Origin: Nitrospira sp.
GTDB lineage: Bacteria > Pseudomonadota > Gammaproteobacteria > Acidiferrobacterales > SPGG2
Length of the DNA: 38,346 bases
Direction of reading: 5' to 3'
NCBI GenBank assembly: GCA_019456345.1
Contig: VRUB01000008.1
Span: 1 to 38,346, forward strand
Part shown: one piece after another, positions 10,548 through 38,246 of the stretch
How positions within the stretch are numbered: position 1 is the first letter of the stretch
Layout of the letters: each line of letters starts with the position of its first letter
Translations under genes and position numbers: made by a program
Notes under the pieces: generated by a model
Told to the model about the DNA's origin: nothing
The model's input: the letters and a program-made list of their open reading frames with translations, nothing else
The model's database searches: none

Positions 10548-11093
10548 GTGGGTAAGAAACCCGACATCATCCGCGTCGAGACTATCGCGCAGACGCGCAT
10601 ATTCTGTGTAGAGCAGCTCGATTTGCGTTTTGCAAACGGGCGTGAGGTGAGATACGAACGCCTACGCGCCTCGGCCGGTGAGGCCGTCTTGATCGTGCCA
10701 ATGCGGGACGACGATACAGTGTTGTTGATACGCGAGTACGCGGCCGGGGTCGAGCGCTACGAGTTATGCCTGCCGAAGGGGCGGGTGGACGAGGGCGAAT
10801 CCCCGTACGACACCGCCAACCGCGAGCTTATGGAGGAGGTCGGCTACGGTGCGAGACACCTGCAACACATAAAGTCGTTGACGCTCGCGCCGGGCTATGC
10901 GAACCACACCACCCACATCGTGCTGGCGACAGAGCTCTACCCCGCCCGGCGTGATGGCGACGAACCCGAACCGATCGAGGTCGTACCGTGGTCACTCGGC
11001 AATCTTTCGGCACTGGTAACGCAGACCGACTGCACCGAGGCGCGCAGCATCGCTGCGCTATTTCTTGTGCGCGACCTGCTAGCTGGAAAGTAA
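10548..11093 (+). CDS. nudE: Nudix hydrolase, ADP compounds hydrolase NudE
   Basis: Hydrolyses ADP-ribose, NADH and adenosine(5')diphospho-nucleotides into AMP plus the other half. The Nudix box spans residues 78-100 (G-x5-E-x7-REL-MEE-VG) and is complete, so the enzyme should be active. The 181-residue length, the N-terminal 'RVETIAQTRIF' and the 'SLTLAPGYANHTTHIVLA' segment fit NudE better than the related NudF. The start is GTG at 10548. cysQ begins eight bases after the stop, suggesting cotranscription; both enzymes clear nucleotide side products. Confidence 0.92.
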   Translation: MGKKPDIIRVETIAQTRIFCVEQLDLRFANGREVRYERLRASAGEAVLIVPMRDDDTVLLIREYAAGVERYELCLPKGRVDEGESPYDTANRELMEEVGYGARHLQHIKSLTLAPGYANHTTHIVLATELYPARRDGDEPEPIEVVPWSLGNLSALVTQTDCTEARSIAALFLVRDLLAGK

Positions 11094-11100
11094 CGCATAC

Positions 11101-11902
<802 letters not shown>

Positions 11903-11913
<11 letters not shown>

Positions 11914-13366
11914 GCATTCGCTGGACGGTGCACTATATCTCGCAATCGACCAAGGTGGGCAGGGCAGCCGCGTGCTCGTATTCGACGAGCAGGCAGAGGC
12001 GGTAGCCGAGGGGTTTTGCGAGTTTGGCGCAAACATGCCGCGGGCAGATTGGGTCGAGCAGGATCCAGAGGGTCTGGTGTCATCGGTATCGGTGGCGCTG
12101 GATCGAGTGACAAGCAGCTTGGGCGAAAAATACAACCGTATTGTCGCCGCAGGGCTGGCAACTCAACGTTCAAGCATCGCGTGCTGGGACAAGCATAACG
12201 GCAGCGCGCTGTCACCGGTCATCAGCTGGCAAGACAGACGGGCACACAACTGGCTCGAGCAGTTTGCCCATCACACGGCGCGCATTCACCAGATCACGGG
12301 CCTGTTTCCCAACGCGCATTATGGGGCGAGCAAGTTTCGCTGGTGCCTGGACAATCTTCCCGAGGTCAGGCGTGCGTGTGACAGCAAGCGCCTCGCCTGG
12401 GGACCGGTAGCAAGCTTCCTGCTTTATCGGCTGCTTGCCGAACGCCCGCTGATGGCCGATCCCGCTAACGCCTCGCGCACGCTGCTCTGGAACGTGAAAA
12501 CCGGGAACTGGGATCCGGAGCTACTCGAGCTGTTCGGCCTACCCTTGCAACCGTTGCCGCAATGCGTGCCCAGTCGCCGCGAGTTCGGCACGCTATGCGT
12601 CGGTAATAAGAAAATCCCGGTTACCGTCGTCACCGGGGATCAATCCGCTGCCGTCTTTGCGTTTGGGCATCCACGATCCGATACCGCCTATGTGAATATT
12701 GGCACGGGGGCGTTTGTACAATTCTTGTCGGATGAGTACCCTGGTTGTACACCGCGTTTTTTGACCAGCGCAGTGCTGCACGACGGCGAGGACATATTCT
12801 ACACCCTGGAAGGCACGGTGAACGGTGCCGCCAGTGCCTTGCGCTGGCTGGAACGTGAGTACGCGCTGTCAAGGCTCGAGGCGAAGTTGGCGCAATGGCT
12901 CACCCACACCGCCTCGCCGCCATTGTTTCTGAACGGCGTCTCCGGCCTCGGGTCACCGTACTGGGTCGCCGATTTTCCCTGTCGCTTTATCGGTGCGGGC
13001 GATGCATCGGCAAAGGCGGTCGCAGTGATCGAGAGTATCGTGTTTTTGCTGCAGACGAACCTGGACGGCATGCGCCCATTCACGGCAGCCACGGTGAGGA
13101 TCCAGATTAGCGGCGGCCTTGCCCGCCTCGACGGACTTTGTCAGCGATTGGCCGATATCAGCGCATTGCCGGTGTATCGCCCGGCCCAGTGTGAGGCGAG
13201 CGCCCGCGGTACGGCGTTCCTGCTGGCTGGCCGACCTGCCGCATGGCCGCAGACCAACAGCGGTCAATGCTTCAGCCCGGCCAACAACCCGGGCTTGAGC
13301 GAGCGCTACCGCGCCTGGCGCGAGGCCATGCGTGGCGTGCTCGCCCGCGAGGCGTTACCGCGATGA
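11903..13366 (+). CDS. FGGY-family carbohydrate kinase, glycerol-kinase-like
   Basis: An ATP-dependent sugar or polyol kinase. The N-terminal phosphate loop is present as LAIDQGGQGSRVLVFD, the substrate-domain segment as ISWQDRRAHNW, and the catalytic-base motif as VTGDQSAAVFAFG. GTGAFVQF and ISGGLARLDGLCQRLAD form the C-terminal nucleotide domain. Overall order and length (487 aa) match glycerol kinase. However, where GlpK has TNQRET, this protein reads ATQRSS: the Arg is kept but the glycerol-contacting Glu is Ser. Also, the phosphate-loop GTTSSR-type sequence is GGQGSR. The substrate may therefore not be glycerol. It overlaps cysQ by 11 bases and converges on a glycerophosphodiester phosphodiesterase 12 bases away. 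Confidence 0.82.
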
Positions 13367-21629: not shown

Positions 21630-21963
21630 TCGATGTCGCTCAATCGCCTTGGGGTTGGGTCATTATTATCAGGATGCTTAAAATAGTTTTTCAGCAGTCT
21701 ATTATTTATCGTCGCCAGGAAAAAACCCGGCTCCGCACGCCGTAGAAAAACCTTTCTTACTCGGCGGCGACATAATTGCGTGGCGCCAAGCGAAAAGCCA
21801 GATCGATTGCTTGGTGACTTTTTCGGCGCGGCGGCTGCTACCGTAGGCCGCTTGCACCGCCAGGTCGCTGGCCAATATTGTTGATTGCGTGCAGCATGGG
21901 TTTTGCAGCTTCATCGACTATTGGGCTCGATTGCCAATAGCTACGGCAACTAAGGGTAATTGG
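21630..21963. other. intergenic region with a repeated 16-mer
   Basis: About 330 bases before the ankyrin gene. AAAATAGTTTTTCAGC at 21680-21695 recurs exactly at 29763-29778 inside a palindrome. Imperfectly paired GTCGCC (21711) and GGCGAC (21765) flank a region with runs of A. A 70-codon minus-strand frame (21702-21914) lacks a ribosome site and I do not call it. The area may be the relic of a mobile element end. Confidence 0.4.
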
Positions 21964-22806
21964 ATGAAGAGCATACTAGGGCTCATTATGGCGACTTTAT
22001 GCGCCGGGTTGTACATCGCGACTGCCGCACAGGCGGGACCGCTGCACGATGCAGTGAAGAGGGGTGACCAGGCGCAGGTCAAGCGACTGCTTGGCGATGC
22101 GGCGAATATTGATGCGCGTGCCCGCGACGGTGCGACGCCATTGATTATCGCCGTGCTGACCCGCCGCGATGCGGTGGCGCGGCTGCTCATCGCGCGCGGC
22201 GCCGGCGTCAATGCCAAGCGCAAGGACGGCGTCACACCGCTGCACGCCGCCGCCCGCACCGGCGCAAGCGCTATTGCCGAGCTCTTGATCACCAAAGGCG
22301 CGGCTCTCGATGCGCAGAACTGGGGTGGCTGGACGCCGCTGCACACTGCAGCGCAAGAGGGTCATACCAATGTGGCGACGGTGCTGATCGCACGCGGCGC
22401 CGAGCTGAACGCGGCTGACAAAGACGGGCTGACGCCGTTGCATATGGCCGTGTTCGATGGTCATATCGAGTTGGTGAAGCTGCTCGTGGCGGACGGCGCC
22501 GACGTTAATGCACGCGGCATGGGGGGATTTACGCCGCTACACATGGCGGCCGGCATGGGACGCCCTGCCATCGCCGAGCTGCTCGTTGACAAGGGTGCCG
22601 ATGTAAATGCGCGCGACCGACGTGGCTTGACGCCGCTGCACGGGGCGGCCGCTTATGACCACAGGGGTGCAGTGCAGTTGCTGCTCGCCCGTGGCGCCAG
22701 CGTCGATGTAAGCACCCAGGACGGTCGCACACCGTTAAGCATGGCGACGAAGGAGGGGAATCAGAAAATCGCCGAGCTACTCCGGCGCCATGGGGCGGGC
22801 AAGTAA
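21964..22806 (+). CDS. exported ankyrin-repeat protein
   Basis: A 280-residue protein made of a signal peptide (MKSILGLIMATLCAGLYIATAAQA, cleavage before GPLHDAV) and eight consecutive 33-residue ankyrin repeats. Most repeats keep the xTPLHxAA...G....V..LL..GA.vNA pattern; the first and last are capping variants. No other domain is present, so it should act as a protein-binding scaffold in the periplasm or outside the cell. The ATG at 21964 has AAGGG seven bases upstream; the frame is open from 21889, but that would bury the signal peptide. Partner unknown. Confidence 0.88.
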   Translation: MKSILGLIMATLCAGLYIATAAQAGPLHDAVKRGDQAQVKRLLGDAANIDARARDGATPLIIAVLTRRDAVARLLIARGAGVNAKRKDGVTPLHAAARTGASAIAELLITKGAALDAQNWGGWTPLHTAAQEGHTNVATVLIARGAELNAADKDGLTPLHMAVFDGHIELVKLLVADGADVNARGMGGFTPLHMAAGMGRPAIAELLVDKGADVNARDRRGLTPLHGAAAYDHRGAVQLLLARGASVDVSTQDGRTPLSMATKEGNQKIAELLRRHGAGK

Positions 22807-25721: not shown

Positions 25722-26285
25722 TCAGCGGGCGTTATCATGAATCACCTCTCGCAGCAGGTGCACCAGCGCCTCTTCCTGGTAGCCGATGTGCTTGACGATC
25801 TCTTGCGCTCGTGGGGAAAGGCGCCGATAGCCCCAGCATGATCGCCGCTTAGTCTCGGCCCAACCCTCACGTCGGTAATAAAGCGGCAGGTTGACATCGA
25901 AATAGGAGATGCTGTCCGCGTCCTTGAGCAAATCGGAGCGGGGATCGCCACCCACCTCATGGACCACCACTAGCCGGCAGGCTTCCTTAACTATGGCGCC
26001 TTCCACCCCGCGATCCTCCAGGATGCCGCGTAACAACCGTGCACTACGCTGAGCATGATCCGCCTTGAAGGCGTCGTAGTCACGATAGTCTTCCCGACGT
26101 ATATGCTCCGGCGTGGCACGGTCAATATCATGCGCCAGCGCCGCGATTTGGAGTGCCTCGTCCGCATCCGGCTGCAGGCGCAACAGCCACTCCAGGGTGT
26201 TGTCGGCATGACGTGGGTCCTCGGGTACGCGCGAGCCGGCGATGACCGCCCGGATTTTGCGTTTCGCGCGCTCGACGCTAAGCAT
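25722..26285 (-). CDS. HD-domain protein (DUF4202-like), coupled to the inositol-phosphate enzyme
   Basis: A 187-residue soluble protein with HD-superfamily metal ligands: His26 (HADNTLEWLL), His52-Asp53 (LAHDID), and a distal Asp in KDADSISYFD (about 122-124), with a further HEVGG. HD proteins are metal-dependent phosphohydrolases; substrate is not predictable. The start ATG at 26285 overlaps the stop codon of the upstream fused cytidylyltransferase by eight bases, so translation is almost certainly coupled and the two probably act in one pathway. The frame runs to 26318, but ATG 26285 puts the overlap in the usual form. It is the third gene of the inositol locus. Confidence 0.78.
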   Translation of the reverse strand: MLSVERAKRKIRAVIAGSRVPEDPRHADNTLEWLLRLQPDADEALQIAALAHDIDRATPEHIRREDYRDYDAFKADHAQRSARLLRGILEDRGVEGAIVKEACRLVVVHEVGGDPRSDLLKDADSISYFDVNLPLYYRREGWAETKRRSCWGYRRLSPRAQEIVKHIGYQEEALVHLLREVIHDNAR

Positions 26286-27600
26286 CACGGGCAAGCAGGA
26301 CTCGGCGCAGGGTCTCAAGATTCATGACCACGGCAATCAAAACCAGCACCGGCAGTATTAGATTGGTCACTGCGCCCAGAAAGATGAGAAAAACGCGCAT
26401 ATCCCGCCCCATCCGCAACCCGGCCGCGCCCCCGGCTTTGATGCGCTCGCGCATCAGGTTGTCGTACTTGTCCGCCGTGTAACTCAACATGAACGAGCCG
26501 ATTATGGCCATGAAACCGGTGAACAGGACCCAGCCGCTCGCTTCTATCGCGAGCAGGTGCCAGGTCAGCCCGAACAGCAGAAACGCATCGGCGTAGCGGT
26601 CAAGTACTGCATCGAACCAGCCGCCGAACTCGCTGCTTTGGAACTTGAGCCGGGCCACTTCGCCGTCGCACCCATCGATGACGGACGCGAACTGCGCCAG
26701 GACACCGCCCAACAGCAGGGCAAGATACCCACCCAGTGCGAATAGTCCGGCGGCCAGCAGCGAGCACAGAAACGAGAACAGCGAGATCTGATTGGGCGTA
26801 ACATCGAGTTTCGCCAAATGGTGGGAAAACCGCACGGAGATGGGGCGATTCAAGTAACGCGATACTGGCCCATCGTTGGGCTTGTCGCGGAGCCGATCTA
26901 GCAGCGCTTTCTCCGCCCTCTTGAAGGCCGCGGGATCGTCCACATCGACCCAGAAACCGCGAGTCATGACGGCTTTGGCGCGCCCCTCCGCGGCCAGGCA
27001 ACGTACCGCGCCGGACAATGTGGCATCACCGTTTTTTTCTCTGCTTTGCTCCAGGGCCGCAAATATGGCGGGGGAGCACAGGAAAATACCGGTATCGAGG
27101 CCATTGAAGTCGGCGAGCCCCTTGCCGATGCCACTGATCTTACCGTCTTTTACCTTGACGCGGGTGACATCCTCCGTATCGATGAGTGGATTGCGGGTGT
27201 TGCCGTCCACTCCCAGCGCGATCTCCCCATCGGCCAGGGACAGCGTTGTCAACATACGCGCAAGGGGCGGCTCGAAGAGGTGATCCGCCATGAGCAGCAA
27301 AAACGCTTCATGTAGGACTTTTCGCGCCTTGAGTACGGACAGGCCGTTTTCTTTCTCCCAATCGTCATTCACCAGGAATGTGACCCGAACCGCAAGGCGC
27401 TCGGCCAGCCGCTCCAAGAAATCGCGGACCCGGTCACCCTGATAGCCCGTAACGACATAAAATTCATCCGCCCCGGCTTCCCGTGCGGCGCGAATGACGC
27501 GTTCAATCAGGGGAATACCCAGGATGGGGATGAGGGGCTTGCTCTCACCCCATGGCTGCAGTCGGCTACCCTTGCCAGCGGCGATAATCAGGCATTTCAT
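26278..27600 (-). CDS. fused sugar/inositol-phosphate cytidylyltransferase and CDP-alcohol phosphotransferase (IPCT-DIPPS-like)
   Basis: A 440-residue bifunctional protein. Residues 1-225 are a nucleotidyltransferase ([38 protein letters not shown]). Residues about 245-440 form a membrane CDP-alcohol phosphatidyltransferase with the complete catalytic signature D-GC-DG-EV-AR-x8-G-GWF-D-AVL-D and four to five hydrophobic helices. This fusion is the known form of CTP:inositol-1-phosphate cytidylyltransferase/CDP-inositol:inositol-1-phosphate transferase that makes di-myo-inositol-phosphate phosphate in some thermophiles. The upstream inositol-1-phosphate synthase supports an inositol substrate. 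The ATG at 27600 lies 35 bases inside the end of the synthase gene and is preceded by AAGGAG and GAGG. An inositol-lipid role is the alternative. Confidence 0.86.
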
Positions 27601-28720
27601 TCCTCGGTACTCCTTGGTCGCTGATGAACTGCTTCACCATCTGGAAGGCTTCATCGTCGGTGAACGGCACCGGGGGGTGTTTGCAGAAATAGGCCGACGG
27701 TCCTGCTAACAAACCGCCGTGCCCCCGATTTAATGCCAATTTGGCGCACCGAATCGAATCGATCGCTACCCCCGCCGAGTTGGGTGAATCTTCCACCGAG
27801 AGGCGCAGCTCGAGGTCTATGGGCACATCCCCGAACAACTTGCGTTCCATGCGGATGAAACAAACCTTGTTGTCGTTCTGCCAAGGCACATAATCGCTTG
27901 GGCCGACATGGATATTGTCGTCCTCTATACGGTACGCAGTTACGGCCTGCACCGCCTCAGTCTTGGATTCCTTCTTGGAAGCTAGACGATCGCGGTTGAG
28001 CATATTGAGAAAATCCGTGTTGCCTCCAGTATTGAGCTGGTAGGTGCGCTCTAATTTCTCTCCGCGCTTGGCGAACAGGTCGGTTAGCACCCGGTGGGTA
28101 ATGGTTGCCCCCAACTGGGACTTGATGTCGTCACCGATAAGGGGAAGACCGGCCTCTTCAAAATGCCTGGCCCACCGACCATCAGGATCGCTGGCGATAA
28201 ACACCGGAATGTTGTTCACGAACGCCAGCCCGGCCTTTAATGCGCAACCCACATAAAACCGGGTCGCTTCCTCGGAGCCGACAGGTAGATAATTGATGAG
28301 GATTTCTGCACCGGATTCCTCTAGTACTCTAATCGATGTGTTCTTCGGTGGATTCCGTCTCGTCCGCCAGGCTAAAGGTGCGCCTTTGGTCGTAATGTGT
28401 CATGTGGTCGGAAAACTCGTCGAGAATTTGGCCCATTCGTACGGTGACGTCGGACTTGGGGATATCGGAGCAGAAAATGGTCATGCAGTTGGGGGCGGCA
28501 AAAATCGCCTCATGCACATCAACGCCGACTTTGCGTTTATCGGTATCAAAGGCCGCGACAACCTCGATGTCGCCGGGCTTATAGCTCCCGATCTCCAATG
28601 GATCAGACCGACGGCATCTTCTGGATTCTTTCCCGCGTAGTAATGGATACCCTGTATCAGGGAGCTGGCGCAGTTTCCGACTCCAGCGATAGCGATCTTG
28701 ATCTTATCCACGTCTTTCAT
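27566..28720 (-). pseudogene. ino1: myo-inositol-1-phosphate synthase, two compensating frameshifts
   Basis: Converts glucose 6-phosphate to inositol 1-phosphate with NAD+. The reading frame begins at ATG 28720 (AAGGAGG close upstream): [22 protein letters not shown], the NAD loop. Near 28598 the family sequence jumps to another frame ([20 protein letters not shown] to STEEHI). Near 28330 it returns to the first frame ([38 protein letters not shown], then [14 protein letters not shown] to the stop at 27566). Joined, it is about 384 residues, normal for the bacterial-type synthase. All three pieces are well conserved, so the damage is recent or is a sequencing error. The cytidylyltransferase fusion overlaps its 3' end. 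Confidence 0.85.
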
Positions 28721-28959
28721 TGCCTCCTTTATGTTCTCTCGATGAACGCGTTCTTTTGCGCGAAAGCGCCCTCGCTCCGTACGAACTCACGCACGTAGAG
28801 TCTGGCAATCATCTCCCGATTGGCTGCGATATCCCGCTGGCAGACACACCAGTGGTAGTCCGACCCAATCGAATCTGCGATCCACTGCCCAGATTCCTCG
28901 CAAATGCCGCCCAGGGATTTATACCATCCTGCGTATCTCTTTTGTGACCCCCAAGGCGG

Positions 28960-29160
28960 TTACCTTTCTTGGATGAGCTGTTCACCGCAATCCACACAGT
29001 AGGGACTCCGATTGCGCCGGCGTATCGCATGTTGTTGCTCACTACATGCTTTCGCGGGAATATCTTTGTTTACCAGCTCGCCACACATTGAACAAAAGCG
29101 CACCGGCGCGTTTGCACGCCCGTGGTTGTAATTGGGACAACGGGCTGCCCGCACCATCAT
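28960..29160 (-). CDS. small double zinc-ribbon protein
   Basis: A 66-residue protein with two likely zinc sites: CPNYNHGRANAPVRFCSMCG and, after a CSEQQHA stretch, YCVDCGEQLIQER. CxxC knuckles and a strongly basic linker (IRRRNRS) suggest nucleic-acid or protein contact. Short proteins with this 'CPNYxHGRxNxPVRxCxxCGE' opening occur widely in gammaproteobacteria without known function. ATG ATG at 29160/29157 are equivalent starts; the Shine-Dalgarno is weak. A 240-base gap separates it from the inositol operon, which may hold that operon's promoter, though I could not mark one. Confidence 0.68.
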   Translation of the reverse strand: MMVRAARCPNYNHGRANAPVRFCSMCGELVNKDIPAKACSEQQHAIRRRNRSPYCVDCGEQLIQER

Positions 29161-29339
29161 CTTGGTTCTGTCATCATTAGCTGTTTCATGGCCCTGAGTA
29201 GCGGCGCCACCCGGGGTGTGGCTTTTCGTGCGCACCGCGACCACTTGGCGACCGAAACACCATTGTCACCTAATCTTGGATGCGCGGACTGCACCACTAG
29301 CGCGCCACACGGAGTTGGAAACCGAACGGCTCCCTCCGC

Positions 29340-29634
29340 TGCGGTTGGAGGGTGGTGTGACAGAGATCAATCTCAAACAGAAGGCGGAGCCGAGACCGTG
29401 GGAAGTGTCCTCCGCTTCGCGCAGAAACGCAAGAGCACAAAGCGGCTGCGTGGGATTGCAATCATCGATCGCGAGACGTACACGGGACTGAATCGGGACA
29501 CCAAGATCGAGTTGATCCGCACACGGACCCCGCTCGGGCTGATGAATATGTGCAAGCTTTTGGATGAAAAGCCCGGTTCACTCACAGCACCCCGCTATGC
29601 ACGCAAGCATGGCTCGGTTCCAGGAAGATGCTGA
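29340..29634 (+). pseudogene. remnant of a mutator-type (IS256-like) transposase N-terminus
   Basis: Two frames together resemble the start of a transposase: RRNARAQSGCVGLQ in one frame to about 29460, then IIDRETYTGLNRDTKIELIRTRTPLGLM...APRYARKHGSVPGR in another, stopping at 29634. The 'DTKxELIxxxxPLGLM' and 'APRYARK' phrases are what I recognise. A frameshift and loss of everything beyond the first 100 codons make it dead. Family assignment is from memory and uncertain. Confidence 0.5.
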
Positions 29635-29748
29635 ACAGGTCCTTCCATGCCGTTTTCAGCTCGAAAAGTAAAAATGCGATTTTTGCTTTGCTCTATCTTT
29701 GAAACACTTTCCGCGTTCGAAAAATGTGCGGTGCCTACGTGCACCGTT

Positions 29749-29788
29749 CTACATGGCCGCTGAAAATAGTTTTTCAGCGGCCATGTAG
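29749..29788. repeat. perfect 18-bp inverted repeat with 4-base loop
   Basis: CTACATGGCCGCTGAAAA (29749-29766), loop TAGT, TTTTCAGCGGCCATGTAG (29771-29788). It could act as a bidirectional terminator, since the stem has A/T at its loop end only, or be a miniature mobile element. The inner 16 bases recur exactly at 21680-21695. It lies between the transposase remnant and tRNA-Phe. Confidence 0.8.
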
Positions 29789-29841
29789 ATCTGCGCCACG
29801 GCAGCACGCCGGGCGCGGTAATCAATCAAAGAAAGCAGACT

Positions 29842-29864
29842 CCACCGATCATGGCAATCGGTGG
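29842..29864 (-). terminator. possible terminator downstream of tRNA-Phe
   Basis: CCACCGAT and ATCGGTGG form an eight-base stem with a seven-base loop 41 bases beyond the tRNA 3' end. On the minus strand it is followed by a T-rich but interrupted tract (AGTCTGCTTTCTTT), so termination is plausible but not canonical. Confidence 0.4.
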
Positions 29865-29904
29865 GCGGAGTTAAGAGGTGAGCACGCCTGAGTTGTTGCT
29901 TATC

Positions 29905-29980
29905 TGGTGGCCAGGGACAGAATCGAACTGCCGACACGGGGATTTTCAGTCCCCTGCTCTACCGACTGAGCTACCTGGCC
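29905..29980 (-). tRNA. tRNA-Phe (anticodon GAA)
   Basis: The minus strand folds as a complete cloverleaf of 76 bases with encoded CCA: acceptor GGCCAGG/CCTGGCC, D arm around GCTCAGTCGGTAGAGC, anticodon arm GGGGACTGAAAATCCCC with GAA, and T arm with GTTCGATTC. It reads phenylalanine codons. It is the last gene of the minus-strand asmA-mutY-yggX block, and its 3' end faces the disturbed segment at 24.3-29.9 kb. Confidence 0.97.
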
Positions 29981-36705: not shown

Positions 36706-36740
36706 GTGAACCATTGCGGAGGATCGTAGAGGACGACGCA

Positions 36741-38246
36741 ATGTCAGTGACCTATCATCACGCCCTGGCGCCCGGTACCCGAATCGAGTCCTACGAGGTC
36801 AACCACGTGCTGGGCGTGGGCGGGTTTGGCGTAACCTATCGCGCCTTTGATCATACGCTGCAGCGCCAGGTGGCGATAAAGGAGTATCTGCCGACGGGGC
36901 TCGCGGTGCGCACGCCCGATGGGACCACGGTCGGCCCGAAGTCCGACAACGACGTCGAGAATTACGAGTATGGGCTGAAGCGTTTTCTCGACGAAGCACG
37001 CACGCTGGCGAGATTCCGTGAACCGAATATCGTTCGCGTTATCCGCTACCTCGAGGCGCACGGCACCGCCTACTTCATTATGGACTACGAAGACGGTCAG
37101 CCGCTGAGCAAGCGCCTGAAGAAGGCGGTGACCTTGAGCGAAGATGAGATCCTGGCCATCATCGTTCCCATTGTGCGTAGCCTGCGCGCCGTGCACGCGC
37201 AACAGTTCCTGCATCGCGACATCAAGCCCGCTAACATCTACCTGCGCAAGGACGGCTCACCGGTGCTGCTGGATTTTGGCTCCGCGCGACAAGCGCTTGG
37301 CGAGCAGAGTCGCGCCATGACCGGTATGGTCACCCCGGGGTACGCGCCCTTCGAGCAATACTTCACCAAAGGCAAGCAAGGCCCCGCCACCGACCTCTAC
37401 GGGATCGGCGCAACCATGTACCACTGTGTTACCGGCGTAGCCCCGATCGCAGCGACCGAGCGCATCGCGGAGATTCAGGACGGTGAGTCTGATCCCATAG
37501 GAAACCTGGGCACTCATGTCGAGAAAAACTACAGCCCGTCGTTCTTGCGTGCCATGATGTGGCTGCTTGAACCGAATGCCAAGCACCGCCCCCAGACCGT
37601 TAATGAGGCATTGGCGGCGCTCGAGCACGGTGGCAGCGACCGCGCCGCGAGCACAATGACACCGCCGAGCGAGCAAACCCAGAGCACGGCGGCAGCGACA
37701 GACTTCCAGGAAACGGCCAGTATCGATGAGCTGTCCGATACCGGCGCGTCGTGGAAGGCAGATGTGCTGCAGACAGTGGAGATCAACCTGGAACGCCACA
37801 TTGGCCCTTTGTCCAAGGCGCTTGTGCGTAAGGCCGCGCAGAAAACCGCCAATGTCGAGGAATTGACCGAGCTTTTGGCGCGATTCATTCCCGCGGAGCG
37901 CGATAAGACCGTGTTCCTGGCCAAGACCCAGGTCATACGAGATACGCAAATGCCCAAAGATTTGCGACCGCCGGAAGCGCCGCAGCGGCGCGGCCCGCAA
38001 CGCCGTGCGCCCGTAGAGCAGGACCGGCCGCCGCAGCCGTCGGTCACATTGGAGGAACGCCTGTTAAAGGCGGCGGAAGAGAGCCTTGCCGTCTACGTCG
38101 GGCCGTTGGCCAAGGTCCTGGTCAAGCGCGCGGCGCGCCAGACCTCGGATCTGGATGAGTTCTGTCAGATCCTGGCCAAGGAACTGCCGGATGAACAGCG
38201 GCGAACCGCCTTTTGCACTGCGTTGCGTCGAAAAGCGTTATCCTAA
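36741..38246 (+). CDS. serine/threonine protein kinase with two C-terminal repeat domains
   Basis: A 501-residue cytosolic Hanks-type kinase with no membrane segment. The P-loop GVGGFG (about 25-30), ATP-contact Lys47 in VAIKEYLP, catalytic HRDIKPANIYL (His158-Asp160), DFGSARQ (Asp178) and the activation-segment GYAPFEQY are intact, so it should be active. After a linker rich in Thr/Ser come two related modules, about residues 337-397 and 436-499. Each has a helix ending in IGPLSKALVRKAA or VGPLAKVLVKRAA, then a helix-turn ending in LLARFIP or ILAKELP. A GAGG eight bases upstream selects the ATG at 36741 over a start at 36714. The C-terminal repeats recur in proteobacterial kinases; their ligand is unknown. 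Downstream is only window-end sequence. Confidence 0.92.
   Translation: MSVTYHHALAPGTRIESYEVNHVLGVGGFGVTYRAFDHTLQRQVAIKEYLPTGLAVRTPDGTTVGPKSDNDVENYEYGLKRFLDEARTLARFREPNIVRVIRYLEAHGTAYFIMDYEDGQPLSKRLKKAVTLSEDEILAIIVPIVRSLRAVHAQQFLHRDIKPANIYLRKDGSPVLLDFGSARQALGEQSRAMTGMVTPGYAPFEQYFTKGKQGPATDLYGIGATMYHCVTGVAPIAATERIAEIQDGESDPIGNLGTHVEKNYSPSFLRAMMWLLEPNAKHRPQTVNEALAALEHGGSDRAASTMTPPSEQTQSTAAATDFQETASIDELSDTGASWKADVLQTVEINLERHIGPLSKALVRKAAQKTANVEELTELLARFIPAERDKTVFLAKTQVIRDTQMPKDLRPPEAPQRRGPQRRAPVEQDRPPQPSVTLEERLLKAAEESLAVYVGPLAKVLVKRAARQTSDLDEFCQILAKELPDEQRRTAFCTALRRKALS

Follow-up and report, generated by a model that had tools for sequence, protein, structure and literature searches.

A recurrent cassette of inositol-1-phosphate synthase, IPCT/CDP-alcohol phosphotransferase fusion and DUF4202-type HD protein with a putative role in di-myo-inositol phosphate synthesis

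The window, i.e., the whole stretch of 38,346 nucleotides analysed here, carries three minus-strand genes encoding an inositol-1-phosphate synthase (IPS), a fusion of an IPCT-like cytidylyltransferase with a CDP-alcohol phosphotransferase, and an HD-domain protein (Table 1). Their coordinates confirmed the gene set described in the first-pass annotation, including the complete active site of the fusion, the overlap of the HD start codon with the fusion stop codon and the frameshift in IPS. IPS homology extends over 27620-28780, but the reading frame shifts near 28597 and is restored near 28340, a pattern that two single-base indels would explain. Since the frame-shifted stretch (approximately 28597-28340) is still 80% identical to intact IPS, the damage is either recent or an assembly error. 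The open 3' portion of IPS (27566-28252) overlaps the start of the fusion gene by 35 nt. The host MAG, which is 84.6% complete, yielded no further IPS, and with IPS broken in this assembly the pathway of the host may be inactive or may depend on supply from elsewhere. Other long genes of the window, for example MetH and ThiC, are intact, and purifying constraint was observed for the fusion and HD genes across relatives (dN/dS 0.14-0.26).

Table 1. Features of the inositol phosphate locus, with positions counted from the first nucleotide of the window.
Feature	Position	Strand	Remarks
IPS, mycothiol INO1 type	27566-28720	-	Broken as assembled; AAAGGAGG ribosome-binding site before ATG 28720
IPCT/CDP-alcohol phosphotransferase fusion	26278-27600	-	Intact, ATG to TAG, 440 aa
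Cytidylyltransferase (IPCT-like) domain of fusion	26896-27600	-	Residues 1-235; best PDB match of the domain alone is A. fulgidus IPCT (2XME)
CDP-alcohol phosphotransferase domain of fusion	26281-26881	-	Residues 240-440; nearest 4O6M (AF2299), then 4MND (AfDIPPS)
DxxDGxxAR-x8-GxxxDxxxD active-site motif	26599-26676	-	Complete; fusion residues 309-334
RxxR motif R399-D-M-R402 of fusion	26395-26406	-	Aligned with acceptor-phosphate motif of PIP synthases (PMC4634129)
HD start codon/fusion stop codon overlap	26278-26285	-	8 nt; HD ATG 26285-26283, fusion TAG 26280-26278
HD-domain protein (DUF4202)	25722-26285	-	187 aa; candidate ligands H26, H52, D53, H77, H109, D124; proposed DIPP(-like) phosphatase

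Several other features were seen in the window. The stretch between IPS and tRNA-Phe (29905-29980), at 28721-29900, is low-coding debris with zinc-ribbon-like coding remnants and may be the edge of an insertion. Consecutive NUDIX, inositol-monophosphatase-family (178 bits) and FGGY kinase genes occupy 10548-13366 of the plus strand; they are probably NudE/CysQ-like and without relation to the cassette, and the Inositol_P-family protein among them is the second such protein on the same contig. Also on the plus strand, an ankyrin-repeat-like protein (21889-22806) and a eukaryote-like Ser/Thr protein kinase (36714-38246) are encoded.

The first domain of the fusion matches nucleotidyltransferases and the second CDP-alcohol phosphotransferases, and the best PDB match of the full-length protein is the A. 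fulgidus IPCT-DIPPS (4MND), to which it aligns end to end. Both share the two-domain architecture, the active-site motif and the RDxR acceptor motif. The match to the DIPPS equivalog model NCBIfam NF041135 is likewise full-length and end to end, with a score of 284 bits that lies below the curated cut-off of 580, and the transferase domain scored 198 bits with AF2299 (4O6M), 113 bits with AfDIPPS and 47 bits with the PIPS fusion chain. The comparison with phosphatidylinositol synthases called for by the first-pass annotation thus placed the domain nearest to AF2299 and the A. fulgidus DIPP synthase and away from PI and PIP synthases. As the DIPPS cut-off is not reached and the transferase domain is more similar to AF2299 than to AfDIPPS, the product, given as di-myo-inositol-phosphate phosphate (DIPP) in the earlier reading, is one that we infer. 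AF2299 is of the soluble-substrate type and shares the conserved RDxR and C-terminal RR, but it is described as using a CDP-glycerol donor (PMC4634129), whereas the N-terminal domain of the fusion is IPCT-like. Among 80 sequences, the IPCT domain residues G9, K21, N85, D106 and D219 are invariant or nearly so. Moreover, R399-D-x-R402 is kept in 76 of the 78 fusion sequences covering the site, and R432/R433 are also kept; the two exceptions (L131 and L132) carry N at position 402 and still have HD. By contrast, the transferases encoded beside stand-alone IPCT genes (n = 4; L195, L198, L199 and L200) have RRDFI in its place and no C-terminal RR. The phosphate group of inositol phosphate is bound in PIP synthases by two arginines, one belonging to an RxxR motif (PMC4634129). 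PIP and archaetidylinositol-phosphate synthases resemble the fusion in the CDP-alcohol fold, in this I1P-acceptor arginine motif and in a product that also needs a phosphatase, but they use CDP-lipid donors, lack an IPCT domain and are distant in sequence, as the PIPS score shows. Two tandem fusion genes precede HD at one related locus (L111:8410-11322), and the catalytic residues of the first are altered (DCCDGAVAR).

The HD protein scored above the gathering cut-offs of Pfam DUF4202 (PF13875; 64.2 vs. 35.1) and HD (28.9 vs. 22). H26, H52, D53, H77, H109 and D124 are invariant in 73 HD sequences, as are R139, R148 and W151, and the former six, following an H/HD/H/H/D pattern, are candidate metal ligands. 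A sequence search against the PDB gave only a marginal match, to the Thermotogales HD hydrolase 2PQ7. The AlphaFold model was confident (pLDDT 93.4), and its best 50 Foldseek matches included YpgQ, 2PQ7, HDDC2 and YGK1 with weak E-values and a top TM-score of 0.63, which supports a predicted HD hydrolase fold and indicates no substrate. YpgQ, HDDC2 and YGK1 share the HD fold and the metal-ligand pattern, but these known relatives act mostly on nucleotides and are only 10-19% identical, whereas the subfamily found in the cassette tracks the fusion. In the papers searched, we found no report on an HD protein together with DIP, and none on DUF4202.

Scanning a single genome for each species yielded 310 relatives of the fusion, and the best 79 loci were kept. 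HD immediately follows the fusion in 72 of these 79; of the other seven, four end at a contig edge, one (L077:11435-12826) carries HD at the C-terminal end of a PfkB kinase encoded immediately downstream, and two (L123 and L134) have no adjacent HD. Where measurable, the HD start lies at a distance implying overlap with the fusion stop in 58 of 59 cases, and at L064 fusion and HD form one ORF of 638 aa, although one indel could also be enough to join them, since the two genes overlap in different frames. Only three families recur as neighbours in the best 79 loci: fusion, HD and IPS. IPS adjoins the fusion in 65 of the 79 loci, and in at least 12 of the other 14 HD still follows the fusion; for 13 genomes in which IPS is not adjacent, a close IPS was found elsewhere in five and only a distant one in another five. 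The fact that HD is kept where IPS is not adjacent indicates that the fusion is linked more tightly to HD than to IPS. In agreement, the correlation of pairwise distances with those of the fusion was r = 0.80 for HD and 0.33 for IPS, although IPS itself varies less. The arrangement recurs in dozens of genomes, far beyond chance. A search of the cassette against plasmids gave no match.

Individual loci depart from this layout. L146:14137-15849 (genome G057) holds an IPS-HD pair without the fusion, while the same genome also has a fusion-HD cassette split over contigs; HD might act on I1P as well, or the fusion might have been lost at this locus. At L147 a PIP-synthase-like gene lies between fusion and HD. 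A PfkB-family kinase, which could be an inositol kinase, stands beside the cassette at L077, L085, L087, L108, L131 and L132; replacement of IPS by this kinase is not a clean explanation because the L132 genome has IPS elsewhere.

Co-occurrence was in line with the linkage. Among 369 genomes of Gammaproteobacteria the full fusion was present in 11, and full-length HD in 10 of these 11 and in none of the 358 others (Fisher p ~1e-18). In G366 HD lies on a separate contig from the fusion, and in G067, the fusion genome without HD, an Inositol_P-family gene is located between IPS and fusion (L144:6646-7458). Weaker DUF4202/HD matches (30-55 bits) in six other gammaproteobacterial genomes are generic relatives. 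In the 78 genomes of Zetaproteobacteria, fusion and HD were found in the same two (G500 and G466), and HD in none of the other 76. The co-occurrence set by the first-pass annotation as a test of its proposal was thus borne out: HD accompanies the fusion and almost nothing else. Given these counts together with the linkage, a chance neighbourhood of the three genes was ruled out. A stand-alone IPCT is present in six gammaproteobacteria and nine zetaproteobacteria, none of which has HD; G324 (L049) was left out as ambiguous because its contig ends inside the gene. In most inspected loci the stand-alone IPCT adjoins IPS. At L195, L198, L199 and L200 it is accompanied by a separate CDP-alcohol transferase of 411-444 aa, in several cases in divergent orientation, and these sets likely serve another pathway of Zetaproteobacteria, leading to an inositol lipid or glycan. 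L142:9672-11767 combines stand-alone IPCT and IPS with Glyphos_transf (CDP-glycerol glycerophosphotransferase-like) genes, which suggests an inositol-phosphate-decorated glycan.

Based on these sequence comparisons, we propose that IPS would make L-myo-inositol-1-phosphate (I1P), that the first domain of the fusion would convert I1P and CTP to CDP-inositol, that its membrane domain would transfer the phospho-inositol group to an acceptor that is itself phosphorylated, most likely another I1P molecule, to give DIPP and, in the last step, that the translationally coupled HD protein would remove the terminal phosphate to yield di-myo-inositol phosphate (DIP). The N-terminal domain and IPS imply CDP-inositol as the predicted donor, and with the IPCT-like domain and its usual IPS neighbour I1P would be at hand both as donor precursor and as acceptor. 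We put the probability that the three genes are a solute-synthesis cassette making DIP at roughly 0.6, and we infer its substrates, product and phosphatase activity. The contrast in acceptor arginines, kept in the fusions and missing from the four transferases beside stand-alone IPCT, means that HD accompanies those transferases which are expected to use a phosphorylated acceptor and whose product would carry a phosphomonoester. HD is best read as a candidate phosphatase that would take over from the transferase, with DIPP or a closely similar compound as its substrate. To our knowledge and in the papers searched, the DIPP-to-DIP phosphatase has no firm assignment. In G067 an inositol-monophosphatase-family gene fills the HD slot, and an extra inositol monophosphatase was reported near an IPCT/DIPPS island of hadal Thaumarchaeota (PMC7265257). 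Such deep-sea thaumarchaeal islands are similar in that a fused IPCT-DIPPS of non-thermophiles has a phosphatase-family gene nearby, but this is an inositol monophosphatase and not an HD protein (PMC7265257). The earlier proposal of HD as the DIPP phosphatase thus found partial support, in the linkage of HD to the fusion and its co-occurrence with it, and the function itself is a predicted one. The HD partner would be an addition to a known pathway and is a strong candidate for the DIPP-to-DIP step. The odds are about even, in our view, that HD proteins of the DUF4202 type serve as dedicated DIPP phosphatases and complete a cassette of two to three genes, spread horizontally among about a dozen phyla, by which non-thermophilic marine bacteria form DIP or a sister inositol phosphodiester, with inositol monophosphatase relatives taking the slot elsewhere.

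Glycero-phospho-inositol is another archaeal solute, and it would be formed if the fusion joined CDP-inositol to glycerol-3-phosphate and HD dephosphorylated the resulting glycero-phospho-inositol phosphate. The closeness of the transferase domain to AF2299 rather than AfDIPPS, together with the CDP-glycerol described for the former (PMC4634129), speaks for this acceptor, but the IPCT-like N-terminal domain, the usually adjacent IPS and the end-to-end match to the DIPPS model make it unlikely; either acceptor, I1P or glycerol-3-phosphate, needs a phosphatase step. An older DIP scheme includes I1P hydrolysis (PMC1224877), and HD might accordingly release free inositol from I1P, as acceptor or useful product. 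While the IPS-HD pair without fusion at L146 and the inositol-monophosphatase family of the gene that stands in for HD in G067 would fit, I1P is also made in genomes that combine IPS with stand-alone IPCT and have no HD, HD remains with the fusion where IPS is not adjacent, and the fusions keep the phosphate-binding acceptor motif, so that we consider I1P hydrolysis quite unlikely. HD as a CDP-inositol hydrolase or a general I1P phosphatase was likewise disfavoured because of the stand-alone IPCT genomes lacking it.

The first-pass annotation had also weighed an inositol phospholipid head-group route, in which the membrane domain would move phospho-inositol to a lipid. CDP-inositol-dependent routes to inositol lipids have been proposed in bacteria (PMC9246714), and the PIP-synthase-like gene at L147 could be taken in the same sense. 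However, PIP synthases are distant from the fusion (47 bits), the extra C-terminal transmembrane helices typical of lipid-accepting relatives (PMC4634129) are absent from it, a non-phosphorylated lipid acceptor would make a phosphatase needless, and the likelier lipid or glycan systems, with stand-alone IPCT and a separate transferase without acceptor arginines, lack HD; a lipid product is therefore very unlikely. The six-residue set of H, HD, H, H and D is common to diiron HD oxygenases. Its conservation in HD would agree with a MIOX/PhnZ-like oxygenase, or HD might be a regulatory domain, neither being a phosphatase; yet the best 50 Foldseek matches, all of them weak, contain HD phosphohydrolases and nucleotidases and no MIOX or PhnZ, and in G067 the place of HD is taken by a gene of a phosphatase family, which renders this reading highly improbable.

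The MAGs in which the cassette occurs carry labels of about a dozen bacterial phyla and span many marine lineages, although some phylum labels may be binning errors, as the records are mostly MAGs. The first-pass annotation called the fused enzyme thermophile-type; a thermophile-specific setting was ruled out by these labels, 'non-thermophilic' being judged from organism names and sources. The cassette differs from archaeal and thermophile IPCT-DIPPS in this range of non-thermophile lineages and in its linkage to HD, as well as in its lower model score (284 vs. 580 bits) and a transferase domain nearer to AF2299. DIPPS genes have been reported in deep-sea archaea (PMC8397731; PMC7265257; PMC10773090), and DIP genes are mentioned for SAR116 (PMC12262181). 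The cassette provides one strongly linked, small and soluble candidate for the DIPP-to-DIP step, for which the stand-alone IPCT genomes serve as negative control, and, if this assignment is true, it would give DUF4202 a role. Moreover, judging by the spread of the cassette, a solute that has been taken for a hot-water marker may be a broader marine trait in bacteria, as was already suspected for deep-sea archaea.
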